A stretch of DNA of 64,000 nt from Puniceicoccaceae bacterium (GTDB lineage Bacteria; Verrucomicrobiota; Verrucomicrobiia; Opitutales; JAFGAQ01). The stretch is taken from assembly GCA_028285755.1 (NCBI GenBank), contig JANQOQ010000010.1, positions 1-64,000 of the forward strand, read 5' to 3'. Position 1 is the first letter of the stretch. Every line of letters starts with the position of its first letter. The position numbers and the translations under genes were made by a program. The notes below the pieces were generated by a model, which saw only the letters and a list, made by a program, of their open reading frames with translations, searched no databases and was not told where the DNA came from. Below are positions 27,994 to 61,600 of the stretch, piece by piece.

Positions 27994-30900
27994 TTAAAAA
28001 CGGAAGGTGTTAGTGATGAAGAGCGATTGTTCGGGTGGGGTACGAATTACAGCTAAAGTACCATCGGGATTAACGGCTACCGGGATGTCCTCATCATCCC
28101 GGATGGCATTACGGATGTTCAGTTGGATTCGCCAATCAATACGATTTTCAAATATTTGACGTCTGTAAGAGAACCAAAGGTCACCGTTAAAAGTGTCTTC
28201 TCCTAAGAACGGGTTATCAATGTCCGGGATCTGGTTTCCCTGTTCATCAAGCAGGAAAGGGTAGCCGATGGCTGCCTTATCCTGCCATCTCAAAGCTCCT
28301 CCCATTCCAAATCCCTCCAAGGGTCCCTCACTAAAAGTGTAGTTGGTCACCAGATTCGCGCGCCACTTACGTTGTTCCTGAGACAGGCTTCCATCTTGGG
28401 CGAGCTCACCCCGCAGGGATGAAAGTCCGCCATCTCCCTGGATTCTACCGAGAAAATTGGTTTGCTCACCTAATGAGGGTGAATCCCGGACGTTGTCGAG
28501 ACCCGCATCGATGATGTTCTGTTCGAGTTGGAAGGCGACATCTCGGAGTAGGGGAGCAGTATTCAGGCGAACGGTTTCCTGTTTTGCGACATTTAGTGCA
28601 ATAGACCAATTGGGCATGATCGAGCCGACCAGTTCAATTTCCATCCCATCGGATATAAAATCGAAAGTGGATGCGAGCCCCTCGATATTGGTTTGGTCGA
28701 CGATGCCGCTTTCATCGATACTTATGTTTCTCAAAGAGCGCGTGGGCTCGGGTAATAACCCTTCTATGAGACGGAACATCTCCTCATAGCTATTAAGCCC
28801 GATGAGAGGGCCATCGGTATCAGAAAAGGGGATGCCCACGTCCTTTGCTTCCTGCCATCGGTTCAACCAGTTTACAATCCAGTTGGTGACCCCATTCAAG
28901 GAGCCTCCAGCGCCCGTAGAGTTATTCGTGTTTTGGGTTTCATAGATATTGACACGCAGTGATAAACGACGTTCCAAAAGCTCCAGCGTGAAACCGTACT
29001 CAGTGCTTTCACCCACCGGCGGGTCGATGGGGGTGCCGATAATGGATTGGCGTAAACCTGAAGGCAAGAAGCTCTCGGCTTCGTAGTAATGAAAACTCAG
29101 GTCTGCACCCAAGGGGAGATCAAAGAGGTATTTTTCGGGGAAAAATGCAACAATGCTTGTCGTAAAGGTCTCATCACCCTCTTCACTATTGGGATTGTTT
29201 TGCAGTATCAAATTCGCTGGATCAATGTTGCCATCCGGCAGCCGGTCATTCTCAAATCCTCCGTTTAAGCGATCCCCAAATTCAGTTTCATCATCCCGCC
29301 TCCAGGCGAGAATGGTGACGACATGCTCATCCAGGAAATTGCTCTTGAGCGCCCAAGCCTCTGAGTTGAGCTCAGTGCGCTCAACATTCGCGTTTCTCAG
29401 ATTTTCATTTATAAAAAACTCATCCTCCAGGCGTTGTTGCTGGGTATTATCCCAGTATATCACATTGTGTCTCGAACCCACTTCGGGATACGTGAAATTG
29501 ACAACGTCCGTGATGCGAACGTCATTGAAATCTGTCATGCCAGCAACGGAGGGTCCGATGTATGTGAGTGTATTAACATTGCGGCGGAAGTTATCACCCT
29601 GTCCGTTAAAAATAGCATTGCTACTGACATCGATGCTATCGCTGTCCCAAATGAGTGTAGTGGTTCTGTTATCGATATCGGATACGAGTGATTCAAAGAG
29701 TGCAGTCAGTGAATGCCGCCCCAACCATTTGCCGAGCTTTTCGCTAGCTTTATTAAAGTCAAACTGAGCAAAAGCGGTGAGCCGGAGGGTTTCTTGCTCG
29801 AATCTATTTCTATCGGTGTTGAGAATACCTGAACGCACAGCGGGTCGCAGAAAATTCGGATTGGGTAGATCATTCGAAGCGGTTTCTGAAATATCCAGAT
29901 AGATTTCCTTATTGGTTCCGGCATTTAAAGGGGTCCTGAACAAGCGGTCTATGCTCTGGCGATTATAATTGAACTCGATCCCTGCTGAACCATCCAGAAA
30001 AGATTGATCCAGGGTGAACTGTTGAACGTTGAATTGATTGGTCGTGAGATTACTATCCCCTTGTAGCAGGCGATTGTGATAGTCGAATATATCGCGGTTT
30101 TGAATCACGAGACTGGTAAAACCAGGCAGAGGCTGGATGCGATTGCCCGTGAAATAATGATCCTGTCGTTGCCTGCCGCTGGCACCTCTAAAGCGGTTTC
30201 GGCCCATAATGCCTGATAGACCGGCAAAGCTTGTATCTGCGTATCCCGGATCTACCTGGCTGCCGCTTTCGTAGGTGAGCGGTATCTGTATAAAAAATGG
30301 GATACGGGTAGCTGTGGTTCCAAAACCTTCCCTTGTGATCGTATTAATAGAGGCAAAAGGCACAAAGTTAGCCGCTTTGTCCGAACCGGCTGGAATATCG
30401 CTGGGAATCAAGCTATTGGATGTAAGAGTATCGATCGTGATACCGGGCACATTCAGCAAACTGTCGACCAGTGGACCGTATCCATTAAACCAATAACGAA
30501 AACTGTCCGCGGGTGGAATGACATCGGGAAGATTGGCTTCAATATCACCAAATTCAAAGTGTCCCCGGAGCATCATTTTACCCAGGAATTTATTATTTTT
30601 GTTTTCAAACAGTATTGCCTTAAAAGCCGTGTATAATCGCTGATCCCTTTCAAAAGCAGGCTCTTGTTGGAATTGTGTATCATCGTAAAGGCCAGCAACC
30701 CGTACACTCAGCCGCTCATTCAGGATTACCCGGTTGAAGTCGAATGAGCTCCGATGACTACCCCGATTATTGAAGCGGAAGTCGATGCGATTAAAATCGC
30801 GCGCGAGAATCGCCTGCTTGAGGGAGTGATCGATAACCCCACCCGGAACTCCTACTCCAAATAATACCGAATTGGGACCCCGGTTGATCGTTACTCGGGA

Positions 30901-31815
30901 TGTGTTGTATTGGTCGAAAGGGATGGGTGTTCTGAAGAAGTCTCTGGTTAGCTCTGCCCTGGTTAAACCTCTTATTCGCTGCCCATTCTGGGGTTGGCGT
31001 CTTTGATTTTGAGTGTTAAATCGGCTCCCCTCACCGCCACCGGCTGAGTAATTGCCTAACGCACCGCCTACTTCGGTGTTTGCCGTATAAGTAAGCAATG
31101 AAAATACATCGGTAGCCCCAGTATCTTCCAGGAACTGCTCAGTTAAGATAGTAATGGAGGATGCGATTTCACGCACCTCCGTACGGATGCGTGTGCCCGC
31201 CAATGTGCTCTGCGCAGTATAGCCGGCATCTTCGGAAGCATCGATGACGAAAGGGGTGAGTAGAAATACGCTCTTGTCGACGTTATCCCCGTTCGAAAAT
31301 TGATTTCTGGCCATGCTATTGCCCACCAATCGGTCCAGAAAATTGCCGAACAGATTTCGGTTGGTTCGTTTTTCGTTTTCAGAACTCACAGATGAAGTGC
31401 TCGAAGGTTTCAATGGTGATGTGGAACGAACAATCGCAAATGAAACATCTGAATAATCGTTACTTACTCGAATGACCTCGCAGGGGGTGTCAGCTACCAT
31501 CAAGCTTAATGCTTCAAATGCAGTATAGGTACCCTCTATGGAATTGGAATAGAGATCCTCCACAACCTGTTCTTCAAATAATATTTCTACCTCTGCGACG
31601 AAGGAAGCCGCCTTGAGGGTTTCACTCATAAGGCCACGATCAATTGAGAAAAAGTGCAAATGCGCATCATGCTGACCGCTCGTACTTGCATTGCTAAAGG
31701 GACTTAATAAACCGGTACAAGCTGCCATGACGGCAATGCTGATTGGCAATACCGTCTTGTAAAATACACATAGCAGGGGTAGCTGAGTATAGCCTATTAA
31801 TAGGTATACCTTCAT
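27994..31815 (-). CDS. STN-domain TonB-dependent receptor
   Basis: 1273 residues. After a signal segment (about 22-38) comes an STN-like domain (about 50-125: LHFFSIDRGLMSETL, EGTYTAFEALSLMV) that would meet the FecR C-terminus. A polar linker follows (about 130-180). The plug begins after FLLTPFVIDAS, with RTEVREIASSITILTEQFLEDTG, and includes VTINRGPNSVLFGVGVPGG. The 22-strand barrel runs to a terminal FITNTFRF with aromatic last residue, as outer-membrane barrels need. It imports large ligands using TonB energy. Together with the FecR and sigma genes upstream on the same strand it forms a surface-signalling triplet. Unlike its two relatives here, the linker has no hydrophobic second signal peptide. 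Confidence 0.9.
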   Translation of the reverse strand: MKVYLLIGYTQLPLLCVFYKTVLPISIAVMAACTGLLSPFSNASTSGQHDAHLHFFSIDRGLMSETLKAASFVAEVEILFEEQVVEDLYSNSIEGTYTAFEALSLMVADTPCEVIRVSNDYSDVSFAIVRSTSPLKPSSTSSVSSENEKRTNRNLFGNFLDRLVGNSMARNQFSNGDNVDKSVFLLTPFVIDASEDAGYTAQSTLAGTRIRTEVREIASSITILTEQFLEDTGATDVFSLLTYTANTEVGGALGNYSAGGGEGSRFNTQNQRRQPQNGQRIRGLTRAELTRDFFRTPIPFDQYNTSRVTINRGPNSVLFGVGVPGGVIDHSLKQAILARDFNRIDFRFNNRGSHRSSFDFNRVILNERLSVRVAGLYDDTQFQQEPAFERDQRLYTAFKAILFENKNNKFLGKMMLRGHFEFGDIEANLPDVIPPADSFRYWFNGYGPLVDSLLNVPGITIDTLTSNSLIPSDIPAGSDKAANFVPFASINTITREGFGTTATRIPFFIQIPLTYESGSQVDPGYADTSFAGLSGIMGRNRFRGASGRQRQDHYFTGNRIQPLPGFTSLVIQNRDIFDYHNRLLQGDSNLTTNQFNVQQFTLDQSFLDGSAGIEFNYNRQSIDRLFRTPLNAGTNKEIYLDISETASNDLPNPNFLRPAVRSGILNTDRNRFEQETLRLTAFAQFDFNKASEKLGKWLGRHSLTALFESLVSDIDNRTTTLIWDSDSIDVSSNAIFNGQGDNFRRNVNTLTYIGPSVAGMTDFNDVRITDVVNFTYPEVGSRHNVIYWDNTQQQRLEDEFFINENLRNANVERTELNSEAWALKSNFLDEHVVTILAWRRDDETEFGDRLNGGFENDRLPDGNIDPANLILQNNPNSEEGDETFTTSIVAFFPEKYLFDLPLGADLSFHYYEAESFLPSGLRQSIIGTPIDPPVGESTEYGFTLELLERRLSLRVNIYETQNTNNSTGAGGSLNGVTNWIVNWLNRWQEAKDVGIPFSDTDGPLIGLNSYEEMFRLIEGLLPEPTRSLRNISIDESGIVDQTNIEGLASTFDFISDGMEIELVGSIMPNWSIALNVAKQETVRLNTAPLLRDVAFQLEQNIIDAGLDNVRDSPSLGEQTNFLGRIQGDGGLSSLRGELAQDGSLSQEQRKWRANLVTNYTFSEGPLEGFGMGGALRWQDKAAIGYPFLLDEQGNQIPDIDNPFLGEDTFNGDLWFSYRRQIFENRIDWRIQLNIRNAIRDDEDIPVAVNPDGTLAVIRTPPEQSLFITNTFRF

Positions 31816-31834
31816 GTTACATTTGAATACCTAT
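31800..31834 (-). promoter_or_regulatory. inverted repeat spanning the TBDT start codon
   Basis: ATAGGTAT (31800-31807) and ATACCTAT (31827-31834) are perfect 8-base arms; the ATG of the receptor (31815-31813) lies in the 19-base loop. In RNA this would present or mask the start codon. Similar repeats occur at the starts of the two other STN receptors. Confidence 0.4.
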
Positions 31835-31977
31835 CATTAAATCGATTAATGCGTAAAGTTAAAGAGGTTAATGCAAAAAAGTGTAATATGAAGAGATATG
31901 GGTAGGGCAAATAAGCTTGGCCTGAGTAATGGTGCTGCTTAAGCACTACTGCAATCTCACTAGTTACTGCTAAGGTG

Positions 31978-33042
31978 TCACTCTATACTTTCGAAGAGAA
32001 GTATCTTTGAGTCCCCCTGATACACTACATTGATACCCATTGCTACATCCAGCAATTGAATAAATCCCTGTAGATTATTGGGCCTTAAAGTTGCCGTAAT
32101 GCTACGCGCTCCAATCGTTTCATCCATGATGATGATTTGTGTGTGATTGCGGCGATTGTAGGCAAGTATCACTTCGGACAATGGGGTATTTGTAAATTCC
32201 AAGACTTCGCTTTTCCAGGAGAGCCGTGAGTTGAGCTCGGCCTCCTCGAGTGATAGTATTTCCAGGGGTTCAGCTTCCAGAGTATTTACGATAGAGCGCT
32301 GGCCGGCGCTCAGTTCAATCGCAAGTTGCGGATTCTCTGCCTGATCTGTGATGAGTTCATTGTCGTAGTTTTCACGCGCATCCAGCCATACACGGCCCTC
32401 GGTTACAAATACTTCCACATTATCCTGAGAAATGCTGACATTAAATGCGGTACCAAGAGCTTTAATTTGGGTATCTCCGGCTCGTACAACAAAGGGTCGT
32501 TTGCTGTCCTTTTTAACAGTGAAGTGTGCTTCGCCAGAGTAAAGTGCGATCAAACGTGCGCTATTGGTAAAGTTTACAGATGCCTGCGCACCCCGGTTGA
32601 GCTCAACGATAGAGCCATCGCTCAATAAATTGCGCTGATAAGCGAGAGCAACCTCTCCCTCTGCAAGCATCGTAGGAGTATGCTCACCCTTATTATCCTG
32701 ATAAATCCAAAGACTGAGCGAAAAAATGAGCATGGCAGCTGCGGCGAGCCATGGTTTCAGCAGATTACCGCGTTGGATCGCTTTCACCGGTTTTGCAAGT
32801 AGATCCGGGTTGGGTTCCGAGCTATGCGTCGGCTTCCATTGCTCCATAAGATCGAGTTCCTTCCAAACATCGAGCCGGTGCTCAAAGTACTCTCCATGCC
32901 TGGGATCTTCTGCCAACCATTCAAAGAATTCCTCCGTTTGCTCCGAGCTTAGCCCGCAATCATGCCGGGTCACCCATTCTGCTGCTTCCCTTTTGATTTC
33001 AGCAATGGTTTTCTCCCCTGTATATTCCCCTTTTTCGTTCAT
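31978..33042 (-). CDS. FecR-like anti-sigma/sensor protein
   Basis: 354 residues. The N-terminal cytoplasmic FecR_N/DUF4880 part (about 15-70: AAEWVTRHDCGLSSEQ, FFEWLAEDPRHGEYF) should bind the sigma factor. One transmembrane helix is at about 97-113 (WLAAAAMLIFSLSLW). The periplasmic FecR domain (about 130-240) has GSIVELNRGAQASVNF, GEAHFTVKKDSKRPFVV and ALGTAFNVSISQDNVEVFVTEG. The C-terminal part (about 290-350) is STN-like and would receive the signal from the receptor. Its start overlaps the sigma gene stop (ATGA), and the receptor gene follows downstream. Confidence 0.9.
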   Translation of the reverse strand: MNEKGEYTGEKTIAEIKREAAEWVTRHDCGLSSEQTEEFFEWLAEDPRHGEYFEHRLDVWKELDLMEQWKPTHSSEPNPDLLAKPVKAIQRGNLLKPWLAAAAMLIFSLSLWIYQDNKGEHTPTMLAEGEVALAYQRNLLSDGSIVELNRGAQASVNFTNSARLIALYSGEAHFTVKKDSKRPFVVRAGDTQIKALGTAFNVSISQDNVEVFVTEGRVWLDARENYDNELITDQAENPQLAIELSAGQRSIVNTLEAEPLEILSLEEAELNSRLSWKSEVLEFTNTPLSEVILAYNRRNHTQIIIMDETIGARSITATLRPNNLQGFIQLLDVAMGINVVYQGDSKILLFESIE

Positions 33043-33575
33043 GATTGATTTTCCGATTTATAGCGCTCTACGTATTCTGCACATTTATTCAATCCTAATG
33101 CAGTCTGCGCATAAACGGTATGAATGGACAGGCCGAGCTTTTTGGCGATTTCCTGTTGAGACATACCGTATACTTTTCGAAGTGTAAATATCTGGCGACA
33201 GCGTTCCGGCAGGGATTGAATGGCATTGGTAAGCAATTCTATCTCCTGATTGCGGGTTATGGCTTCAAACGCGGTCATACTGTTGTCTATGACATCTGAC
33301 TCATCCATTTCCACTACAACATTCTCGCATCTTACCTTCGAATGTCGCAGTGCGTTAATCGTCAGGTTGCGTGCGGTTGCGTAAAGGAAGGATTTGGGGG
33401 ATCTGATTTCGTGCTGATTATAAGCTTTGAGCACTTTAAAATAAGCTTCCTGGATAATATCATCAATATCACGAACATTAGGGAAGCGATGGAGCAGCCA
33501 AGATCTTAATTTGGCCTCATGGGGGAGCAATTGCTCTTGGAACCAAAGGTCCTCTTCGGTTTGTTTCTGGGGCAT
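33039..33575 (-). CDS. ECF sigma factor, FecI type
   Basis: 178 residues from the ATG at 33575; an in-frame upstream start at 33608 adds 11 residues absent from the paralogs. Region 2 shows FPNVRDIDDIIQEAYFKVLKAY and PKSFLYATARNLTINALRHSK. Region 4 shows LPERCRQIFTLRKVYGMSQQEIAKKLGLS. It should direct RNA polymerase to the receptor promoter when released by the FecR partner. It is the first gene of a minus-strand triplet and is divergent from a second FecI-type gene only 139 bases away. Confidence 0.9.
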   Translation of the reverse strand: MPQKQTEEDLWFQEQLLPHEAKLRSWLLHRFPNVRDIDDIIQEAYFKVLKAYNQHEIRSPKSFLYATARNLTINALRHSKVRCENVVVEMDESDVIDNSMTAFEAITRNQEIELLTNAIQSLPERCRQIFTLRKVYGMSQQEIAKKLGLSIHTVYAQTALGLNKCAEYVERYKSENQS

Positions 33576-33659
33576 AATGGGATATAACCTATATTGACCC
33601 CCAAACACTAATTGTAAAGACCGAAAAGCTATTCATCGATGGGCCTGTAAACTTAAAGA

Positions 33660-33714: not shown

Positions 33715-34263
33715 ATGCCTGAATTTAACCGACTCGAATGGTTTCAGAAGGAGGTCCAACCCCATGAACCTCTGTTGCGATCTTATTTGATCAAAAAATT
33801 CCCTACATTGGATGACGTGGATGATGTGATTCAGGAGGCTTATGCCCGGCTTTTTAAAAGTTGTCAGGAGTCTGAGATACGTCAGCCGAAAGCATTTCTT
33901 TTCTCAATATCGCGCAATTTAGTCTATGATAAGTTTCGGCGCAGTAATATCGTACAGTTTGAAAGTTTAGCCAGTTTTTCGGAATCATTCGTCTCAGATA
34001 GTAGGTCTGATGTAAGCGAATCGGTTAGCAGGCGGGATGAGGTTAATTTAATTATGGAGGCGGTACAATCATTACCCAAACGGTGTCGGCAGATTATGAC
34101 TCTGCGCGTGATTTATGGGCTTTCGTATAAGGAGATTGCCGCAAAAATGGAAATTTCGAATCACACGGTAAAGGCGCAAATATCCCGGGGGATCAGAAAA
34201 GTCAGTAAATACCTCGCAAAGCATGAAGTTACCGCAGAGACGCTTAAACATTTCGGAGGCTAA
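33715..34263 (+). CDS. ECF sigma factor, FecI type
   Basis: 182 residues. Region 2: FPTLDDVDDVIQEAYARLFKSC, then PKAFLFSISRNLVYDKFRRSN. Region 4: LPKRCRQIMTLRVIYGLSYKEIAAKMEISNHTVKAQI. It is a paralog of the divergent sigma factor at 33039. It has a good sigma-70-type promoter upstream and is followed 9 bases later by its FecR partner and then a receptor, a standard surface-signalling triplet. The two divergent promoters share a 139-base gap. Confidence 0.9.
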   Translation: MPEFNRLEWFQKEVQPHEPLLRSYLIKKFPTLDDVDDVIQEAYARLFKSCQESEIRQPKAFLFSISRNLVYDKFRRSNIVQFESLASFSESFVSDSRSDVSESVSRRDEVNLIMEAVQSLPKRCRQIMTLRVIYGLSYKEIAAKMEISNHTVKAQISRGIRKVSKYLAKHEVTAETLKHFGG

Positions 34264-34272
34264 GGGGGAGTA

Positions 34273-35307
34273 ATGATTTTTAAAGAACAGCGCATACGCA
34301 AAAAGGCGGGTGAGTGGCTTGTTGAGAAAGATGATGGTTTGAGCGAAGAACAAGAGCTGGAATTAAATCAATGGCTTCAGGCAGATGAGAGACATGCGCG
34401 CATATATGCTGAACTTGAGGAGTCCTGGATTCGCATGCATCAACTCAGACGGGCAATCGCACTCGCTGATGCTGAGCCTGATGCTGATGTGCTTATGGGT
34501 GAGCCTGTCATGCATAAACAGCCCATGAAGCGTGTTTTTGTTAAGTATGGCTCTTTCGCGGCTGCACTGCTGATTGGATTTGTATTCATAATCTGGCAAG
34601 TTTCCGAGCCATCTGTTGTATATCAACAAGAGACTCACATAACCGGCTTCAATGACTTTAAGCGAATAATCTTGCCGGATGAAACGATTCTGGAGCTGAA
34701 TCAAAATACCGAAGCACTCGTATATTACGATGAAGCGGTGAGACGTGTTTTACTGACGCGCGGTGAGGCTCATTTTCAGGTGATTAAGGATTTTGAGAGG
34801 CCCTTTTTAGTAGATGTGGGAGAAGTCAATGTGGTCGCCCTGGGTACAGCATTTAATGTGAAGTATGTAGATGATTATGTTGAGGTTTTGGTAACGGAAG
34901 GAAAGGTTGCGGTGACACAGAATCAGGATATGGGCCAAGCCGAAATGCCTGAAGCGATCGATGGACCTCATTTAACTGCAGGTGATCAGGCAATCATTGG
35001 TATGGATGAGTCAGTGGATGCTCTGGAGCTAAAGCGGTTAAACAGTGCGGAGTATGAACAGGTTCTGGCGTGGAAAGGTCCCCGGTTTTTCTTTGAAAAT
35101 ACACCCTTGTATGAAGCCATTGCGGAATTTAATCACCACAATGAACTGAAGATTATCATTGAAGATGAGGAAATCCGCAATCTTAGCATCGGAGGTAGTT
35201 TTCTGCTCGAAGATGTGGAAGCTTTTATTCGCCTGCTTTCTACAGACAGTGAAATAAGTATTTATCGAAAAGATGCTTCTACCATTTATTTGAGGAAGAC
35301 TGAATAA
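34273..35307 (+). CDS. FecR-like anti-sigma/sensor protein
   Basis: 344 residues with a clear ribosome binding site (GGGGGAG, 4 bases before ATG). The N-terminal domain (7-60) has AGEWLVEKDDGLSEEQ and LNQWLQADERHARIY. One transmembrane helix lies at about 94-111 (FAAALLIGFVFIIW). The FecR domain (about 120-220) has ETILELNQNTEALVYY, GEAHFQVIKDFERPFLV and ALGTAFNVKYVDDYVEVLVTEG. The C-terminal region (about 270-340) has LYEAIAEFNHHNELKIII and VEAFIRLLSTDSEISIY, an STN-like ending. It should hold the adjacent sigma factor until the receptor at 35387 signals. Confidence 0.9.
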   Translation: MIFKEQRIRKKAGEWLVEKDDGLSEEQELELNQWLQADERHARIYAELEESWIRMHQLRRAIALADAEPDADVLMGEPVMHKQPMKRVFVKYGSFAAALLIGFVFIIWQVSEPSVVYQQETHITGFNDFKRIILPDETILELNQNTEALVYYDEAVRRVLLTRGEAHFQVIKDFERPFLVDVGEVNVVALGTAFNVKYVDDYVEVLVTEGKVAVTQNQDMGQAEMPEAIDGPHLTAGDQAIIGMDESVDALELKRLNSAEYEQVLAWKGPRFFFENTPLYEAIAEFNHHNELKIIIEDEEIRNLSIGGSFLLEDVEAFIRLLSTDSEISIYRKDASTIYLRKTE

Positions 35308-35359
35308 TGGTAATTGTATAATTTTGTAACCCCAAACTATTTAGTAGATCGTCTTCATC

Positions 35360-35384
35360 GGGTATCTGACGCTGTTGAATACCC
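35360..35384 (+). promoter_or_regulatory. inverted repeat directly before a TBDT start
   Basis: GGGTAT (35360-35365) and ATACCC (35379-35384) are perfect arms around 13 bases and end 2 bases before the ATG at 35387. The in-frame TTG at 35375 lies in the loop. The GGTAT/ATACC core is the same as in the repeat at 31800-31834. Confidence 0.35.
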
Positions 35385-35386
35385 TA

Positions 35387-38122
35387 ATGGAGGCATTAAA
35401 TCTCATAGAACCACTCACTTCTGCTTTGGTGCAAGTTCCCTTATATCCATTGATATTGCTATTGGTCGCATTGCTTTTTTCTGTGCAGCCTTTGCACGGG
35501 CAGGACCCAAAGTATTATGAGATAGCTGCCGGAGATGCGAAAGATACGCTTCAGGAGTTTGCGCGGATTTCCGGTGAGCAAATTCTCTATCTCGTGAGTC
35601 GAGTTGAAGGCTATCAAACATCGGCGATCAAAGGCAGTTATAGTAGTAAAGAAGCGCTTGAGCGTATGTTAGGTGAAAGCGGTTTAAACTACATAGTGGA
35701 TGAGGAGACCCATGCATTCATGATCCGGGTGATCAACAAACAGTCAGAGCAAGTAAATTCAGCGAAGGAGGTTAGTCCCCCGGATGCTGTTACCACTAAA
35801 CCCAAAATAGAAAAAGAAATGACTGTTAGAAAATCAACCCTACGCCGGGTGCTCCTGGCATTTGGCCTTCTTGGAGGTGTTACTGCCTCTACGGTTGCTC
35901 AAGATGCGGATGGAGATGTGCTCATCTTTGATCCATTTGTTGTAGATACATCGAGTGATACCGGGGTGGTAGGCACCCAGGCAACCACCGGTTCATTAAT
36001 TGCAATGGATATTAAGGACTCTCCTTTTTCCATCAATGTAATCAATGCCGAGCTCATCGAGACTCTCCAGTTGAGTAACTGGGAAGAAATTGGCCGCTAC
36101 TCATCCGTAAATACCAGTAATACCCAAGCGACTGGCAATAATATTGCGTTTGCACGGGGATTTCAGATGCAGAATCTCATAAACGGTTATGCGCCCGGCG
36201 GCCGTACTTTTGTGACGGCGAATGTGGAACGTGTGGAAGTGCTCAAGGGCCCTAACTCGGTTTTGTACGGCCTGGCAAATCCGGGCGGGGGTATTAACTA
36301 TATCACCAAGAAGCCATTGTTCTACTCTCAGAATAAGCTGACGCTGACCCTGGGATCGTACGATCTATATCGCGCATTATTCGACAGTACGGGTGCGATT
36401 GTAGAAGATAAGCTCGCTTACCGTGTAGTAGCCAGCTTTCAGGATGCAGGCGGGGATCGTGATCATGAGAGTGATGAGTATACGGTTTTTGCACCTTCCA
36501 TCACATTCCGCCCTATTGATACGCTCTCCATCACTGCGTCCTACGAATATCTGGACAGAATCTGGAATCGCCTGGTCGGCGTGCCCGCTCCTACCATAAA
36601 TGGTCAGAGCGTATATCGACCAAATGAGTTTGGGTTTGATCGTGATGGCTATAACCCCAATGGCCCCGATGCGATTTTCGAGAATGAGCAGCATGCTTAC
36701 AATATCGATGTAAAGTTTACGCCAACCGATTTTCTGGCGTTCCGTTACCAATATAATGCTACTGAGCGTCATAATCCTATCACACAAGGCCTATGGGGTA
36801 CCACAAGTGGTAATTATCGTGCGCAGATAAATGATGCCAGCAATGACGTGGATGGTCACATAGCTGACATGTTGCTTAGTTGGGAGCTTTCGGATTGGGG
36901 TATCAATGGTGATTTCCTGGTCGGTCTGGAAACGAACTCTAATTACTTCGAAACGCCCATTTATCGATTTACGCAGTCCCAAACGCCTATATTTGGGTCT
37001 GAAAATCCAGGTGGTCGAGGCCCTCTCTTTTTGGATACAGAATTTTCCAGCCGCTTCGATATTCCAACGGATCGTATAAGAATCTTCGATACTTCAGTGC
37101 CGCAATCCGGGGGTAACTATCCATTAGCGACCCGGGAAGACCTTCTGCAGCCCGAAAACTTGCGCCAAATCAATGGTCAGACTACCAATGAGTTTACCAA
37201 CTTGCGTTTCCTGCATACATTGCGTGCGTTTGATGATCGTTTGACCGTTGTTACCGGTTATTCATTCGCCGAAGCAAAGACTATCAGTCCAACAGGGCCC
37301 CGTGATCCGGTGACACTGCGTTCTGCTGATACTGTAACACGTGAGCAGGAAGATGAGCCTTACCAAGTAGGCATCGGTTACAACTTCTTCAATAATAACG
37401 ATGTGATCGATTACCTTACGGTATATGGTCAAACAGCAACCAGCTTCCGCAATCAGTTTGGTTTGGATGCGTTCTTCAATCCGATAGATCCTGTTCGTGG
37501 CACTATCGATGAAGTCGGGCTTAAGTTCTCCTCCCACAAGGGTAAGTTCAGTGGCTGGGTAGCATTGTTTAACATGACCAATTCTAACCTTATTAAGCGT
37601 TTGCCACTTGAAGATGTGGATGATCCGAATACGCCTGCGGATGAGACCAGTGATGCAATCACCGCAGCTTCCGGTAAGGAAGAGTCTGAGGGGATTGATT
37701 TCTTTCTCTCATACCAACCCACGGACGATTGGTTTTTCTCTCTCGAAGGTACTTTTTTCGATGGTGAAGTGGTGAGTGACGTTCAAACTCCTGCCCGTGA
37801 GGGGCTTGAACTGCAAAGGGCGCCAGAAGAATCTTTGGTATTCATCGGTTCTCATGATATTGGTAATTTCACTGCAGGTGTTGCCGTTACTTATGTAAGC
37901 GACGCAATCGCATTGAATAACAATATTCGCAACAGTACCCGCCGTACAGATGAGCGAACCCTGGTAGACCTATTTTTCTCCTATGATTCTACTATCAGGG
38001 ATTTGCCTATTACCTATAACCTGAAGATCGACAATATTACCAATGAGGAAAACTACATCGACTTTAACGGGTCCTGGGGCGAGCCTATCAACGCCCGACT
38101 CTCAGCAACGATTACTTTCTAA
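35387..38122 (+). CDS. STN-domain TonB-dependent receptor with internal signal-peptide-like segment
   Basis: 911 residues from the ATG at 35387; a TTG at 35375 is the alternative start. A first signal segment (about 18-36) ends near LHG/QD. An STN domain (about 43-115) includes AAGDAKDTLQEFARISGEQI. After a polar linker comes a second signal-peptide-like stretch (Met at 35819: TVRKSTLRRVLLAFGLLGG, ending TVAQDA). LIFDPFVVDTS follows, then the plug (VERVEVLKGPNSVLYGLANPGGG) and the barrel, ending NARLSATITF with a terminal Phe. The barrel is about 300 residues shorter than in the other two STN receptors. It is the third gene of a sigma-FecR-receptor triplet and is closed by a strong terminator. 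Confidence 0.9.
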   Translation: MEALNLIEPLTSALVQVPLYPLILLLVALLFSVQPLHGQDPKYYEIAAGDAKDTLQEFARISGEQILYLVSRVEGYQTSAIKGSYSSKEALERMLGESGLNYIVDEETHAFMIRVINKQSEQVNSAKEVSPPDAVTTKPKIEKEMTVRKSTLRRVLLAFGLLGGVTASTVAQDADGDVLIFDPFVVDTSSDTGVVGTQATTGSLIAMDIKDSPFSINVINAELIETLQLSNWEEIGRYSSVNTSNTQATGNNIAFARGFQMQNLINGYAPGGRTFVTANVERVEVLKGPNSVLYGLANPGGGINYITKKPLFYSQNKLTLTLGSYDLYRALFDSTGAIVEDKLAYRVVASFQDAGGDRDHESDEYTVFAPSITFRPIDTLSITASYEYLDRIWNRLVGVPAPTINGQSVYRPNEFGFDRDGYNPNGPDAIFENEQHAYNIDVKFTPTDFLAFRYQYNATERHNPITQGLWGTTSGNYRAQINDASNDVDGHIADMLLSWELSDWGINGDFLVGLETNSNYFETPIYRFTQSQTPIFGSENPGGRGPLFLDTEFSSRFDIPTDRIRIFDTSVPQSGGNYPLATREDLLQPENLRQINGQTTNEFTNLRFLHTLRAFDDRLTVVTGYSFAEAKTISPTGPRDPVTLRSADTVTREQEDEPYQVGIGYNFFNNNDVIDYLTVYGQTATSFRNQFGLDAFFNPIDPVRGTIDEVGLKFSSHKGKFSGWVALFNMTNSNLIKRLPLEDVDDPNTPADETSDAITAASGKEESEGIDFFLSYQPTDDWFFSLEGTFFDGEVVSDVQTPAREGLELQRAPEESLVFIGSHDIGNFTAGVAVTYVSDAIALNNNIRNSTRRTDERTLVDLFFSYDSTIRDLPITYNLKIDNITNEENYIDFNGSWGEPINARLSATITF

Positions 38123-56243: not shown

Positions 56244-56804
56244 GTGAGCATGGATTCTGGTGAACATCGCAATATGGGTTACGATGATACTACTCATACC
56301 CAGTGGTATGAGGCGTATCTGAAACCGCATGAGCTGATCATCCGGAATTGGTTGAAAAGTCGATATAATAATCAGGTAGAAGTAGATGATATTATCCAGG
56401 ATGCGCTGATACGGGTAATGAAAGCGCGTGAGACATGTGAGCTCAAATCCCCCAAATCTTACTTTTTTGCAACCGCGCGTAATTTGGCGATTAACAGTCT
56501 GCGCAAGAAAAAGGCGGTCCTCTTCAGTGAACCGGAGGTGGATGTTGAGGCCATGAATTTGCTGGACGATGGTCAATCAGTGGATGAGACCGTAGCCCGC
56601 AATCACGAACTGGAGATTTTAACACGGGCTATACAAACCTTGCCCGACCGTTGTCGCAAAATTTTTACCTTAAGCAAGGTTTATGGAATGACGTATGAGG
56701 AAATAGCCAAAGAAATGGGTATTTCCTTTCACACCGTTTCCAGCCAAATTGCGATTGGTTTGGTAAAGTGCAGGGAGTATATGCGTCATCATGGTAGAGA
56801 TTAG
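56244..56804 (+). CDS. ECF sigma factor, FecI type
   Basis: 186 residues from GTG 56244; the ATG at 56250 is an equally good start. Region 2: VEVDDIIQDALIRVMKA and PKSYFFATARNLAINSLRKKK. Region 4: LPDRCRKIFTLSKVYGMTYEEIAKEMGIS. A weak promoter (TTGGCT, 17 bases, AATATT) ends about 12 bases before the GTG. It is the third FecI paralog in the window and heads a triplet with the FecR gene 7 bases downstream. Confidence 0.9.
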   Translation: MSMDSGEHRNMGYDDTTHTQWYEAYLKPHELIIRNWLKSRYNNQVEVDDIIQDALIRVMKARETCELKSPKSYFFATARNLAINSLRKKKAVLFSEPEVDVEAMNLLDDGQSVDETVARNHELEILTRAIQTLPDRCRKIFTLSKVYGMTYEEIAKEMGISFHTVSSQIAIGLVKCREYMRHHGRD

Positions 56805-56811
56805 GTTATAA

Positions 56812-57834
56812 ATGAAGCAGGAGAGTTCAGAAGAAAAGCGAATAGACCAGGAAGCTGCGGATTGGGTGGCCAAAAAGATTGGTGGCTTTAGTGCTGAAGA
56901 GCAGGATGCTTTTTTTGATTGGTTGGCTAAGGATCCGCGCCACAGTAATGCAATTTCTGAGCACGAACAATTGTGGAAGCAGATGGATCGCCTCGTGGAA
57001 TGGATGCCCGAGCACAGTGACAAGCCCAATGAGGATTTACTCAAGTACAAAAAGCGCGAGAGTTGGTATTACTGGCTAGGAGGAATTGCTGCAGCGCTAG
57101 TATTGGGTATCGTTACGCTGAGTTTCTTCAGTAATAGTTCCGAAATTACAGAATCTTACGTGAATCAGAGTTTTGTTGCCAATACCTACGAAAGCCACGA
57201 GCTTGCCGATGGTTCAGTAGTCGAGATGAATAGTGGGGCAGCGCTCAAAGTTAATTACACGGATATTGAGCGCCGAGTTGAGTTGGTATCCCGGGAAGCC
57301 CATTTCCGCGTAAGTAAAGATCCTCAACGACCTTTTGTAGTGAGTGCTGCGGGCTTTGAAATACGGGCAGTGGGCACTGCTTTTAATGTGAAGTTGGATC
57401 AGGATATTGTGGAGGTGATTGTTACGGAGGGGCGTGTACAGATCACTGGCGACAGCAATGTTGATAGCGAACAGGTCATAAAAGGGGATTTAGAGGTAGG
57501 GCAGCGATCGATTGTCACTCTGGCGAAACCGGAGACTTCACCGTCCATTCAAATTTACGATACGACGATCCAGGAAATGAATCAAAGGCTAGAGTGGAAA
57601 CCTGAGCTACTGGCATTTGATTCAGAGCCGCTTGCAGTGGTTGTAGAGGCATTTAATCGACTGAATACACTGCAGATTATCATAGCTGATGAAGCCCTGG
57701 CGGAAAAGGAAATCGTAGCCACATTCCGCTCCTCCAATGTGATGCATATGATCGAGCTGCTAAAATTAACGATGGATGTATCGGTGGAATTTACAGAGGA
57801 AAATACTGTCATTATCAATGATTTAGCCAATTAG
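56812..57834 (+). CDS. FecR-like anti-sigma/sensor protein
   Basis: 340 residues. N-terminal domain (10-60) with AADWVAKKIGGFSAEEQDAFFDWLAKDPRHSNA. One transmembrane helix at about 87-104 (GGIAAALVLGIVTLSFF). FecR domain (about 115-220): GSVVEMNSGAALKVNY, REAHFRVSKDPQRPFVV, AVGTAFNVKLDQDIVEVIVTEG. The STN-like C-terminus has EIVATFRSSNVMHMIELL. It lies between its sigma factor and the STN receptor at 57944 and is closest by motif to the FecR at 31978. Confidence 0.9.
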   Translation: MKQESSEEKRIDQEAADWVAKKIGGFSAEEQDAFFDWLAKDPRHSNAISEHEQLWKQMDRLVEWMPEHSDKPNEDLLKYKKRESWYYWLGGIAAALVLGIVTLSFFSNSSEITESYVNQSFVANTYESHELADGSVVEMNSGAALKVNYTDIERRVELVSREAHFRVSKDPQRPFVVSAAGFEIRAVGTAFNVKLDQDIVEVIVTEGRVQITGDSNVDSEQVIKGDLEVGQRSIVTLAKPETSPSIQIYDTTIQEMNQRLEWKPELLAFDSEPLAVVVEAFNRLNTLQIIIADEALAEKEIVATFRSSNVMHMIELLKLTMDVSVEFTEENTVIINDLAN

Positions 57835-57911
57835 CCTCCGTTGCCTATTTAATGGTTCTGAAAGAATTTTTATTTTTTTTTGGTTATATCGTTTTCTTGA
57901 AATTGTCACGA

Positions 57912-57929
57912 GGGTGTGAAGTCACACCC
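57912..57929 (+). promoter_or_regulatory. leader hairpin before STN receptor
   Basis: GGGTGTG (57912-57918) and CACACCC (57923-57929) form a perfect 7-bp stem with an AAGT loop, 14 bases before the ATG at 57944. No T run follows, so it is not a terminator; it may protect or gate the receptor mRNA. Confidence 0.45.
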
Positions 57930-57943
57930 CTATTCGAATTATA

Positions 57944-60900
57944 ATGAAACATGCCCCTCTATTCAGTGCATTATGGTGCAAAGTATATGGGCCGCTGTTT
58001 TTAATTTTTTTGGGAGTGTGCTTCACCAGCCAGCTGGTATCAGCAACTGTGGAGACACAGCCCAGGAGCTTCAGCATACCCAGAGGCGAAGCGCTCGTTA
58101 CTTTGCAAGCGTTAGCCCGTCAGGCAAGTGTGGATATATTCTACTCTGCCGAGGGGGTAGAGGGCGTCATGACTCCTTCTCTCATTGGAGTTTATACGCC
58201 TCAGGAGGCTTTCGATATCGTGCTGGCAGGAACTTCGCTGGCTGCATTCCAACATGAGGAATCCGGCGCATTTGTTATCCGTAGGGTAACCGATACAGCG
58301 AAAACAACTGAACCCAAAACAAACCAGACAGACGATATGACAAATCGAAGTTTTATGAAAACCTTCAGGCAGGCGCTTATTTCCATGGGCCTGGCCTTGA
58401 GTGCATCCGGTGCGATCGCGCAGGATGACACGGACGAAGACGTGTTGATTCTCTCTCCCTTTGTGATTCAGGGAGATGAGGAAGTAGGATATCAGGCAAC
58501 GCAGACTCTGGGTGGAACCCGCTTACGGGCTGACCTGCGCGATATTGGCTCGGCGATATCCGTAGTGACCGAGACCTTCCTTGAAGATACCGGATCCAAT
58601 GAACTCCAGGACTTTCTGGTATATACGACCAGTACGGAAGTAGGAGGTATTGGCGGTAATTTTGCCGGTGGGGGCGGCGATTTTAACAATGTGATCCGCA
58701 ATCCGCAAAATAGCACCCGTCTTCGCGGCCTTGGCTCTGCAGACCTTACGCGTAATTATTACCTGACGAATATCCCGATGGATACCTACAACACGACCCG
58801 GGTGGATATCCAGCGCGGACCTAATGCCATCCTGTTTGGTTTGGGGAGTCCTGCGGGTATTATCAATAATACCCTGGTGCGTGCGGAATTTACCACCTAT
58901 ACCGAGCTTGCCTTTATGGCGGACTCTTTCGGTGGGTATAGAGGCTCCTTCCGCATTAATCGTGAGGTGTTGGATGATCGGCTTGCGGTATTTATTGCGG
59001 GCTTAAATGAAGAGAAGAAGTTTGAGCAGGATGCGGCTTTTGATGATGATCGCCGTATTTACACTGCGATTAATCTCAAAATCACGGATTCTACGACGCT
59101 GACTGCGAATCTTGAAGTGGGTGACATCATTGCGAACCGTCCACGTCCCGGACCTCCGCTCGATTACATTACGCCCTGGTATACTTATGGCCGTCCAGTA
59201 TGGGATACTTTCGATACGAACCGCTTGCCTCCACCCGTTGGGCGCAATAATGGCTTGCATGGTACAACTGCAGATTTCCTGTTTGGTCCGGGTGAGTATT
59301 ATTTTGATCCGACATCTAGCACTCCTGATCCTCTTGGGGGTGAGGGTCTCGTGAATGGGCGTGTAACGCAGGGCGCCGGTCCGTTACTTTCAGGATCATT
59401 TTTGCCGATTGAGTTGCTCGCTCAGCGCTATGGCCGAAATGGCCCTTTAATTGAGGGAGTCCCGGCCTTTGGTCCGGATGCTGCGTTTTGGATCACACCG
59501 TCCATACTGGATGACCGTATCTTTGATTTTCGGGAAATCTTGGCAGAGGGGCCGAATTCCGGGCAGCGTGCGGAGTTTGAGGCTTACAATTTTACACTGG
59601 AGCAACAATTACTGGATGGGGACGCGGGTATCGAGTTGGCATTTGACAAGCAAACTTATACTACTGAAAATTTCAGTGGCATTTCAGGTGCCCGAAATTT
59701 TGGATTATACTTAGATTTTAATCGCCAATTATTGGACGGGCGTCCTAACCCCAACTTTGGGGGTATTGCTTCTTATTCCACCAATTTAGGCAATGACACT
59801 TATAATGAGCGTGAGGCGATCCGGGCAACCGCGTATTATGATCTGGATTTTGTGGAAAAGATGGGCGATTCGACGCTGACCAATATTCTGGGTAAGACCA
59901 TTTTTACGGCCCTTTACAATACGCAGACGGTTGATTCAGGATTTAATAATTACCGGGATACGCCAGATCCCATTGTAGGTGATATCCAGCCGAATATGTT
60001 TACCAATGGTAATTTATGGAATGCCTCGAACTACCGAGCATATCCGGTTTCCGGATTACCGGAGGGTCAGACCCTCGTCGACCTGGCGAGCGCAGCTGAC
60101 CTGGTTAATATTGATATCGGAGGTATCACAGCGCGTCAACCCAAGCGGGACGTAGGGACATTCAGTATGTGGAGCCAGGCGAATCAACAGTTTGAGACTT
60201 TTGAGATCCCCATTTATCATCAGTTCAACCGACCTGAATTGGCAGCACTTTCCGGAGATCGTAACCGCAATGTGATCGATTCCTATGCCGTGATCGCACA
60301 GAGCTATTTGTTCTGGGAAAACCTGGTTACAACGATTGGTTGGCGCAGGGATGAAGTAGAACAGTTTAATGCCGGTTCGGCTCCGAATAATCCGGATTTT
60401 GCGAATCGTCGGGTGAATATTGCCGACCCCAATTGGCGTTTGCCAGATGAGCCGGGTCTGGATTTGGCAGAGGAGGTTTGGAGCTATAGCGGCGTTTTCC
60501 ATATGCCTGACTTCATCATGGAGAATCTTCCCTGGAATTCTGAGCTGAGCTTCCACTACAGTGAATCCAGTAATTTTATTCCTCAGGGTCGTCGTATCGA
60601 TTTGGAAAACAATACCATTTCGCCGCCAACCGGAGAGACTACAGAATATGGGTTTACAGTATCGCTCTTCGATCGCAAACTCTACCTGAGAGTCAACTGG
60701 TATGAGACTTCACAGTTGAATGTGGGTGGATATGGCCCGAATGTAGCCAGCGTAACCACACGTATTCTACGTCAAGGTCTGGAGTCCTTTGCGGACAATG
60801 ATCCCGTGAATGCGGGCTTCCAAATCTCAGATATCCCTATACCCACAGGGCCCATTCTTGATATCCGAGGCTTCGAGTTTGATTTTGAAAATCTGACTGC

Positions 60901-61600
60901 CTTTGAATCCCCGGATACTGCGCTTTCCGGAACGAGCGACCTGGTATCTGAGGGAACGGAAATTGAGCTGAACTATAACCCGATTCCCAATTGGACGATG
61001 GTGCTGAATGTTTCTCAGACCAAAGCATCCCGGGATAACACATCCCCAAGTTTTGCGCGGTTCATCGATGAGTTTATGATTCCTGAATTCGTCAATTCAT
61101 CTTTCGGGGATTTTGTAATCACCGCGATTCCGAACAGACCTACTGTAAGAGAGTTGGCGCAGGCTGAAATAAATAACTTCCGTCTACGCCAGTTTCAGGA
61201 TGGCGGGCCTGTCGGTGAACTGAAGGAGTGGCAGTGGTCTTTCATTACCAACTATGAGTTCATCGAAGGTGATCTCGAAGGTTTTGGAGTGGGCGGTGCA
61301 ATGCGCTGGCAGGATGAGTCTTCCATTGGTTTCCGGGTAATCGAAGATCCTGAGTTGGGCTTTATTCAGGATGTAACCGATCCCTTCTTCGGCCCAACCG
61401 ACTTTAAGGTAGATGCCTGGGTTAGTTATAAAAAGAAGATTCTGGATGATAAGGTGGACTGGAGAATCCAGCTGAACGTTCGTAATCTGCTCAATGATGA
61501 CGACCTGATTCCGATCGCGGTGCAGCCGACGGGTGAAACGGCACGTGTGCTTATCCCTGAACCCTTGAAGTTTGAGCTGAGCACTAAGTTCAGTTTTTAA
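57944..61600 (+). CDS. STN-domain TonB-dependent receptor with internal signal-peptide-like segment
   Basis: 1218 residues. First signal segment about 16-34 (LVSA/TV). STN domain about 40-115 (RSFSIPRGEALVTLQALARQ, GVYTPQEAFDIVLAG). A polar linker leads to a second signal-peptide-like stretch at about 132-160 (Met at 58337; KTFRQALISMGLALSASG, ending AIAQ). Then LILSPFVIQGD, the plug (TRVDIQRGPNAILFGLGSPAG) and a long barrel ending ELSTKFSF with terminal Phe. Along its length it resembles the receptor at 27994 (YNTTRV.., FEGDLEGFGVGGAMRWQD-like blocks). It is the last gene of the third sigma-FecR-receptor triplet and is followed by a strong terminator. Confidence 0.9.
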   Translation: MKHAPLFSALWCKVYGPLFLIFLGVCFTSQLVSATVETQPRSFSIPRGEALVTLQALARQASVDIFYSAEGVEGVMTPSLIGVYTPQEAFDIVLAGTSLAAFQHEESGAFVIRRVTDTAKTTEPKTNQTDDMTNRSFMKTFRQALISMGLALSASGAIAQDDTDEDVLILSPFVIQGDEEVGYQATQTLGGTRLRADLRDIGSAISVVTETFLEDTGSNELQDFLVYTTSTEVGGIGGNFAGGGGDFNNVIRNPQNSTRLRGLGSADLTRNYYLTNIPMDTYNTTRVDIQRGPNAILFGLGSPAGIINNTLVRAEFTTYTELAFMADSFGGYRGSFRINREVLDDRLAVFIAGLNEEKKFEQDAAFDDDRRIYTAINLKITDSTTLTANLEVGDIIANRPRPGPPLDYITPWYTYGRPVWDTFDTNRLPPPVGRNNGLHGTTADFLFGPGEYYFDPTSSTPDPLGGEGLVNGRVTQGAGPLLSGSFLPIELLAQRYGRNGPLIEGVPAFGPDAAFWITPSILDDRIFDFREILAEGPNSGQRAEFEAYNFTLEQQLLDGDAGIELAFDKQTYTTENFSGISGARNFGLYLDFNRQLLDGRPNPNFGGIASYSTNLGNDTYNEREAIRATAYYDLDFVEKMGDSTLTNILGKTIFTALYNTQTVDSGFNNYRDTPDPIVGDIQPNMFTNGNLWNASNYRAYPVSGLPEGQTLVDLASAADLVNIDIGGITARQPKRDVGTFSMWSQANQQFETFEIPIYHQFNRPELAALSGDRNRNVIDSYAVIAQSYLFWENLVTTIGWRRDEVEQFNAGSAPNNPDFANRRVNIADPNWRLPDEPGLDLAEEVWSYSGVFHMPDFIMENLPWNSELSFHYSESSNFIPQGRRIDLENNTISPPTGETTEYGFTVSLFDRKLYLRVNWYETSQLNVGGYGPNVASVTTRILRQGLESFADNDPVNAGFQISDIPIPTGPILDIRGFEFDFENLTAFESPDTALSGTSDLVSEGTEIELNYNPIPNWTMVLNVSQTKASRDNTSPSFARFIDEFMIPEFVNSSFGDFVITAIPNRPTVRELAQAEINNFRLRQFQDGGPVGELKEWQWSFITNYEFIEGDLEGFGVGGAMRWQDESSIGFRVIEDPELGFIQDVTDPFFGPTDFKVDAWVSYKKKILDDKVDWRIQLNVRNLLNDDDLIPIAVQPTGETARVLIPEPLKFELSTKFSF

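Follow-up and report, generated by a model that had tools for sequence, protein, structure and literature searches.

Inverted repeats at three receptor starts

The stretch of DNA analysed here (the window, 64,000 nt from a contig of a Puniceicoccaceae bacterium) contains short inverted repeats at or close to the start codons of three receptor genes, each linked to a fecR gene. The question that they raise is whether such repeats take part in the expression of the receptors and, if so, how; the initial annotation had suggested translational gating or a sigma/regulator site. The letters and coordinates that it gave for the three repeats (31800-31834, 35360-35384, and 57912-57929) were all correct. 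Pfam matches showed that genes for an ECF sigma factor and for FecR adjoin the receptor gene in all three sets. In the first, on the minus strand, the FecR gene (31978-33042) and the sigma factor gene (33039-33608) accompany a receptor at 27994-31815, while the second comprises the sigma factor and FecR genes at 33715-35307 and a receptor at 35387-38122, both on the plus strand. The third set, also on the plus strand, contains the sigma factor (56244-56804), FecR (56812-57834), and a TonB-dependent receptor of 1218 aa (57944-61600, first start ATG 57944). All three receptors have a Plug domain. The description of all of them as STN receptors held for the third, with a Pfam STN match above cut-off, and less clearly for the second, whose match was weak (22.9 bits). 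The first had no Pfam STN match, despite which it aligned with an STN receptor of the family over the STN region. A fourth FecR-receptor set spans the right edge of the window. At the other end, positions 1-620 hold the end of a 23S rRNA gene and a 5S rRNA gene, and the only gathering-score matches to known Rfam families in the window, leader families included, were to rRNA.

Repeat 1, ATAGGTAT/ATACCTAT, belongs to the minus-strand gene and has the ATG (31815-31813) in its loop. It is the only one of the three to enclose the start codon, yet it is the weakest of them: 18 of 200 shuffled sequences folded as well as this repeat alone. Repeat 2 (GGGTAT/ATACCC) ends 2 nt before the receptor ATG at 35387, and 12/200 shuffles were as good. 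Repeat 3, the hairpin GGGTGTG-aagt-CACACCC, lies 14 nt before ATG 57944 and has a predicted RNA folding energy of -11.9 kcal/mol, which was equalled in 2/200 shuffles. We also counted exact inverted repeats in the window and in five Markov resamples. The numbers were 25 versus 9-27 for 8-bp arms with spacers up to 19, 222 versus 135-204 for 6-bp arms with spacers up to 13, and 17 versus 7-10 for 7-bp arms with spacers up to 4. Because of these counts and of the folding of shuffles, repeat 1 is at chance level, repeat 2 borderline, and repeat 3 unusual. Taken singly, the three repeats are modest evidence and prove little. When the other gaps were read by eye, the GGTAT/ATACC core shared by the first two was not seen again as an element common to them. 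By eye we also noticed a weak 6-bp hairpin (CATTAA-tcgat-TTAATG, 31835-31851, minus strand) adjoining repeat 1 and preceded by a -10-like TACGCA (31855-31850).

Hairpins and a promoter-like motif across the genome

The FecR-receptor gaps were then considered in the whole genome (a 4.25-Mb assembly of 15 contigs, 97% complete). It yielded 40 FecR matches, of which 38 were kept and two dropped as weak matches to large proteins. An STN receptor was found downstream of 36 of the 38 FecR genes and none for L033 and L054. In 29 cases (class A) the receptor directly follows FecR; the other 7 of the 36 (class B) are preceded by an STN-only lipoprotein-like gene and served as a contrast. Relatives were taken from the order Opitutales with a profile built from receptors having the -1 ORF described below. 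From the hairpin-plus-ATG counts and the codon counts we excluded 19 of 43 STN-profile loci, from genomes with a GC content of at least 0.6, because chance alone gives long -1 frames there; six relatives (L110, L161, L166, L170, L159, and L163) were picked after an open -1 frame had been seen.

The best hairpins in class A gaps were better than those of shuffled gaps (p<0.05 in 9/29, combined p 3e-6). The corresponding figures were 7/39 for co-directional control gaps, which may include terminators, and 0/34 for divergent ones. The initial annotation had proposed to look for an enrichment of stems at other FecR-receptor starts of the genome, and this enrichment was found. When a hairpin and an ATG were scored together, 9/29 class A gaps reached p<0.05 and 7/29 p<0.01 (Fisher 1.3e-8, against shuffles), compared with 5/148 and 0/148 control gene starts. 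The relatives behaved similarly (11/30 and 7/30; Fisher 1.8e-8), while class B gave 1/7 and 0/7. In the clear cases the ATG stands within a few nucleotides 3' of the stem. Between near relatives the stem is kept while its letters change, as in L034 and L055 (GGGTAAC-GTTACCC and GGGCAAC-GTTGCTC); the GGAGCAGTA and GGAGTAGTA stems of two genomes provide a further instance. Such conservation is given as examples rather than as pair counts, MAFFT having placed the 5' arms wrongly, and the leader stems have too little sequence in common for a whole-genome search.

An unseeded motif search in the gaps returned a T-rich block with GG and, about 15 nt further along, CG. Seeded from this result, a search for two blocks in 29 gaps of the genome and six of relatives gave ATaTTTTTTAG.GGTatT, 10 nt, and T.CGTC. 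In the 36 nt after this motif, hairpins were better than shuffles in 13/35 gaps (p<0.05; Fisher combined p 1.7e-10). The motif search is blind to base pairing, yet hairpins were enriched just downstream of what it found. From the 35 gaps examined we infer an ECF-type promoter motif common to the fecR-receptor gaps, i.e. a predicted promoter. At the third receptor of the window, the motif (57873-57907, plus strand) consists of a T-rich -35 block at 57873-57890, 11 nt, and a -10-like ATTGTC at 57902-57907; the hairpin begins 4 nt past this hexamer and had a p of 0.010 within the 36 nt after the motif. The assignments within the window are doubtful, with a posterior of 0.58 at the third locus and a position within coding sequence chosen for the first. 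At the second, a -10-like GATCGTC (35347-35353) was seen by eye before the hairpin, while the EM procedure chose another place. ECF-dependent transcription starts about 6-7 nt past the -10 element, so the hairpin would begin at about +1, and with a -35/-10 motif just upstream it would be at the 5' end of the mRNA. As to the suggested sigma or regulator site, a sigma-type promoter motif is thus present, but it lies upstream of the hairpin and the repeat itself is not the site.

These data bear on two simple explanations. That the three repeats are chance occurrences, or hairpins that terminate the sigma-fecR operon, agrees with the near-chance level of repeat 1 and of the repeat counts in the window, and with the hairpins of co-directional control gaps. 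We find it improbable, because the position relative to the promoter motif and the ATG is kept across the set and recurs in other genera, and because divergent gaps and random starts do not have such hairpins. Furthermore, no T-run follows the third hairpin (the sequence there is CTATTCG), and the other leader hairpins are followed by an ATG. Alternatively, the hairpin could merely stabilize the 5' end of the mRNA, like the ompA leader, the ATG next to it being a by-product. The start of the hairpin a few nucleotides past a -10-like element and the combination of a variable sequence with a constant position would be expected in this case, but the adjacent ATG and the avoidance of stop codons in its frame would be left unexplained, and we regard mere stabilization as unlikely.

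The reading frame opened next to the hairpin

The ATG next to the hairpin (ATG1) is mostly not the start of the receptor. In 10 of 12 loci of the genome picked by hairpin plus ATG alone it is in frame -1 relative to the receptor, the other two picks (L042 and L044) being inside the coding sequence in another frame. The -1 frame is open over 55-89 codons from the STN start in 17/29 class A loci, and over 35 codons in L034 and 27 in L058. Synonymous shuffles of the loci with an open -1 frame had on average about 5-25 open codons, and the +1 frame was not systematically long across the class A loci. Roughly two in three receptors of class A have an ATG1 that opens a -1 frame without a stop through the STN domain; 10 of the 29, including two from the window, are without this ORF.

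A further indication came from codons ending in T, counted over a fixed span of the STN domain, since such a T closes the -1 frame if the next codon starts with AA, AG, or GA. In 10 loci of the genome, closing T-endings were found in 4/102 cases, as compared to 163/402 before other codons (41%; p 4e-15, for paralogs that are not independent of each other); downstream, the T-endings of the same loci amounted to 219/523. In 11 relatives flagged by hairpin plus ATG, the figures were 1/127 versus 131/434, and 1/105 versus 108/362 after removal of two that had been preselected on an open -1 frame. The 19 other relatives had 18/252 versus 228/715. Several relative gaps, among them L108, L111, L113, L120, L126, L154, and L172, were outside this count, and the -1 frames of L111, L126, L154, and L172 are short. 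No avoidance of T-endings was found in the 10 class A loci without the ORF (59/132) or in the seven class B loci (50/109). The STN domains are 24-46% identical to the reference row, a divergence at which third positions should long have been saturated, and the rarity of closing T-endings recurs in other genera. A chance open frame due to codon usage was ruled out by the synonymous shuffles and the T-ending counts. Judged by these counts, the -1 frame is kept stop-free over the STN domain by synonymous (wobble) choice, and this is replicated in the relatives. From the strong avoidance of closing T-endings we infer translation of the -1 frame, at present or in the recent past.

Among the three receptors of the window, the full predicted arrangement is found only in the third. 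Its -1 ORF (57916-58257, plus strand, 113 aa) is open across the STN domain and has 0/10 closing T-endings; it is opened by a GTG within the hairpin stem, not by an ATG 3' of the stem. The -1 frame is closed in the first receptor and also in the second, where the hairpin ends 2 nt before the receptor's own ATG. The earlier observation therefore led to the right place by signs that were partly accidental. Gating in the classical sense, with the start codon occluded by pairing in the stem, was rejected, since in the strong cases the candidate start codons are found on the 3' side of the hairpin; what stands of the suggestion is a translational role, for which the open frame beginning at that place and overlapping the receptor gene is indirect support.

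In a set of 41 loci chosen for having the -1 ORF, and hence all in frame -1 by construction, the receptor's own start (ATG2) is exactly 10 nt past ATG1 in 11 and further away in others; an in-frame ATG2 is missing in six. An open STN frame not preceded by an in-frame ATG was seen in L036, L041, L045, L049, L182, and L216, where TTG, CTG, ATA, or ATT would have to be the start. In other loci (class A L026, L040, L042, L044, L052, and L057; L108 and L120 of genome G004) the upstream start is in frame 0 rather than -1. By eye, these loci encode a hydrophilic extension of about 25-40 codons before the signal-peptide Met, often with acidic residues at its end.

A programmed +1 frameshift was attractive at first, and the missing ATG2 in 6/41 loci would fit it. 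Slippage of tRNA-Pro on CCC-C would join ATG1 to the receptor frame, and C-runs are indeed the top motif near the starts, with ATG-CCC at codon 2 in 7/41 loci. However, CCC within 60 nt of ATG1 is uniformly distributed over the three phases (26/30/28 in the 41 loci), on which ground we rejected this mechanism, which we hold to be very unlikely. In addition, the receptor frame opens only past the C-runs in L030 and L032, the ortholog L110 lacks a CCC codon in phase in the interval from one start to the other, and a shift would not need a -1 frame open over 100 codons.

The -1 ORF might also be a true overlapping gene, expressed from ATG1 and encoding a protein of 78-133 aa with a function of its own. 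A frame kept open by selection over about 100 codons is what such a gene would display, and the synonymous sites of the overlap are more constrained than those downstream: in five related pairs, 54/177 four-fold sites differed in the overlap versus 264/537 downstream. There is thus some added constraint in the overlap, and by our estimate more than stop avoidance alone requires; it would be consistent with coding by the -1 frame or with a constraint on the RNA. A conserved protein sequence, in contrast, was found neither in the pairs nor in an alignment of 25 -1 products, which by eye had no common pattern other than that apparently imposed by the STN codons. The -1 products were identical at 62-71 of 91-105 codons in four pairs and at 8 of 63 in the fifth, which by our estimate is roughly the level expected if the three codon positions change independently. 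The alignment thus led us to reject a conserved overlapping protein, and we hold an overlapping gene to be rather unlikely, if the least so of the alternatives to a control by start choice in the leader.

An internal ATG and a possible choice between receptor forms

All 36 receptors of the genome have an in-frame ATG after the STN domain and before a second signal-peptide-like stretch. CCC is found at -30 to -6 of this internal ATG in 30/36 cases, as compared to 11/66 for other Met codons. In the third receptor of the window, the internal ATG is at 58337 (and again at 58355), with the signal-peptide-like stretch MTNRSFMKTFRQALISMGLALSASGAIAQ (58337-58423, plus strand), and is preceded by aacccaaaac. 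An ACCC-type stretch was also seen by eye before the ATG in many of 24 inspected STN-less receptors, whose matches lie mostly past this point. A receptor form without STN, made from the internal ATG, is therefore probable on these sequence contexts, and the simplest account would be that a complete receptor gene gained an STN domain at its 5' side and retained its original start. Receptors lacking the -1 ORF preserve this context just as well, so the internal start and this ORF need not be linked. The -1 frame stops about 4 to 200 nt before the candidate internal ATGs, often far for re-initiation.

More generally, a C-rich ACCC(C) with an A-rich stretch precedes many start codons in this genome and in relatives, and no motif ranked higher near the starts of receptors. 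ACCC was present at -25 to -5 in 23/189 control starts and at -45 to -25 in 12/189. Shine-Dalgarno-like purine motifs are scarce (26/189 and 19/189 starts in the same two intervals). The ACCC(C) stretch is possibly a start signal or the target of a small RNA.

Our best explanation, to which we give an even chance, is that receptor mRNAs transcribed from ECF-type promoters have the element as their 5' leader, in which the choice of start sets the ratio of sensor to transporter. ECF-sigma promoters between fecR and the receptor gene would drive these mRNAs, RNA polymerase with the cognate sigma factor starting on, or close to, the base with which the hairpin begins. The stem-loop would protect the 5' end and position ribosomes on ATG1 or ATG2. 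Ribosomes on ATG2 would make the sensor-bearing (STN) receptor, whereas those on ATG1 would cross the STN region in a frame that otherwise has no meaning, so that less of the sensor-bearing form would be made; their passage would keep the message covered as far as the vicinity of the internal ATG, where synthesis of an STN-less, transport-only receptor could begin. Start-site choice would in this way set the sensor:transporter ratio and attenuate the positive feedback in cell-surface signalling. The more specific proposal of a translational frame switch, in which the hairpin steers ribosomes either to the sensor-bearing receptor or, via a sacrificial frame and the internal start, to the transport-only one, is more tentative. 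If it were true, the synonymous codons of a whole domain would have been shaped to keep a frame readable whose product is irrelevant.

An STN-only lipoprotein-like gene stands between fecR and the receptor gene in L039, L043, L048, L050, L051, L059, and L061 and, as seen by eye, in L104, L114, L118, L119, L123, L125, and L127 of G004. Its product could compete with the STN domain of the receptor for FecR.

Cell-surface signalling receptors are thought of as one protein that both senses and transports. If start choice operates as proposed, these bacteria would decide at translation how many of their receptors can signal, which looks like a new way of setting how much sensor is made. The overlap would also be a rare clean case of strong synonymous selection for an overlapping frame without a conserved product. 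In the Opitutales, some genomes hold dozens of such receptors. In the open literature on FecR, STN, and TonB, on Verrucomicrobia, and on overlapping frames and leaders, as far as it was covered, the arrangement is apparently undescribed; subscription papers and preprints were outside this scope.

Among the closest known systems is E. coli fec (FecI-FecR-FecA), which has the same gene order, with an ECF sigma factor, FecR, and an STN-bearing TonB receptor. According to a review (PMC9249621), the fecA promoter is FecI-dependent, deletion of the signalling domain of FecA abolishes regulation while transport is kept, and a surplus of the free domain inhibits induction. As FecA without its signalling domain transports but lacks regulation, start choice would set the number of signalling receptors. 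Unlike the Opitutales loci, E. coli fecA has no comparable hairpin plus ATG, its -1 frame has 0 open codons right of the STN start, and its closing T-endings (3/15 versus 9/43) are not comparably rare.

Stabilizing stem-loops at the 5' end of mRNAs are known, e.g. in the ompA leader, which resembles the receptor leaders in having a short stem at the (here predicted) 5' end; the receptor hairpins differ from it in that an ATG stands within a few nucleotides of them and opens a frame overlapping the receptor gene. Upstream ORFs with overlap are also known to control translation, likewise with an upstream start in another frame that overlaps the main start, but the ORF of the receptors is about 80-130 codons long, crosses a whole domain, and occurs in dozens of paralogs within a single receptor family. 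Finally, some genes have internal in-frame starts that give a shorter product, and share with the receptors a conserved internal ATG with a start context; unlike in these genes, the shorter receptor would lose its signalling domain and keep a full signal peptide.
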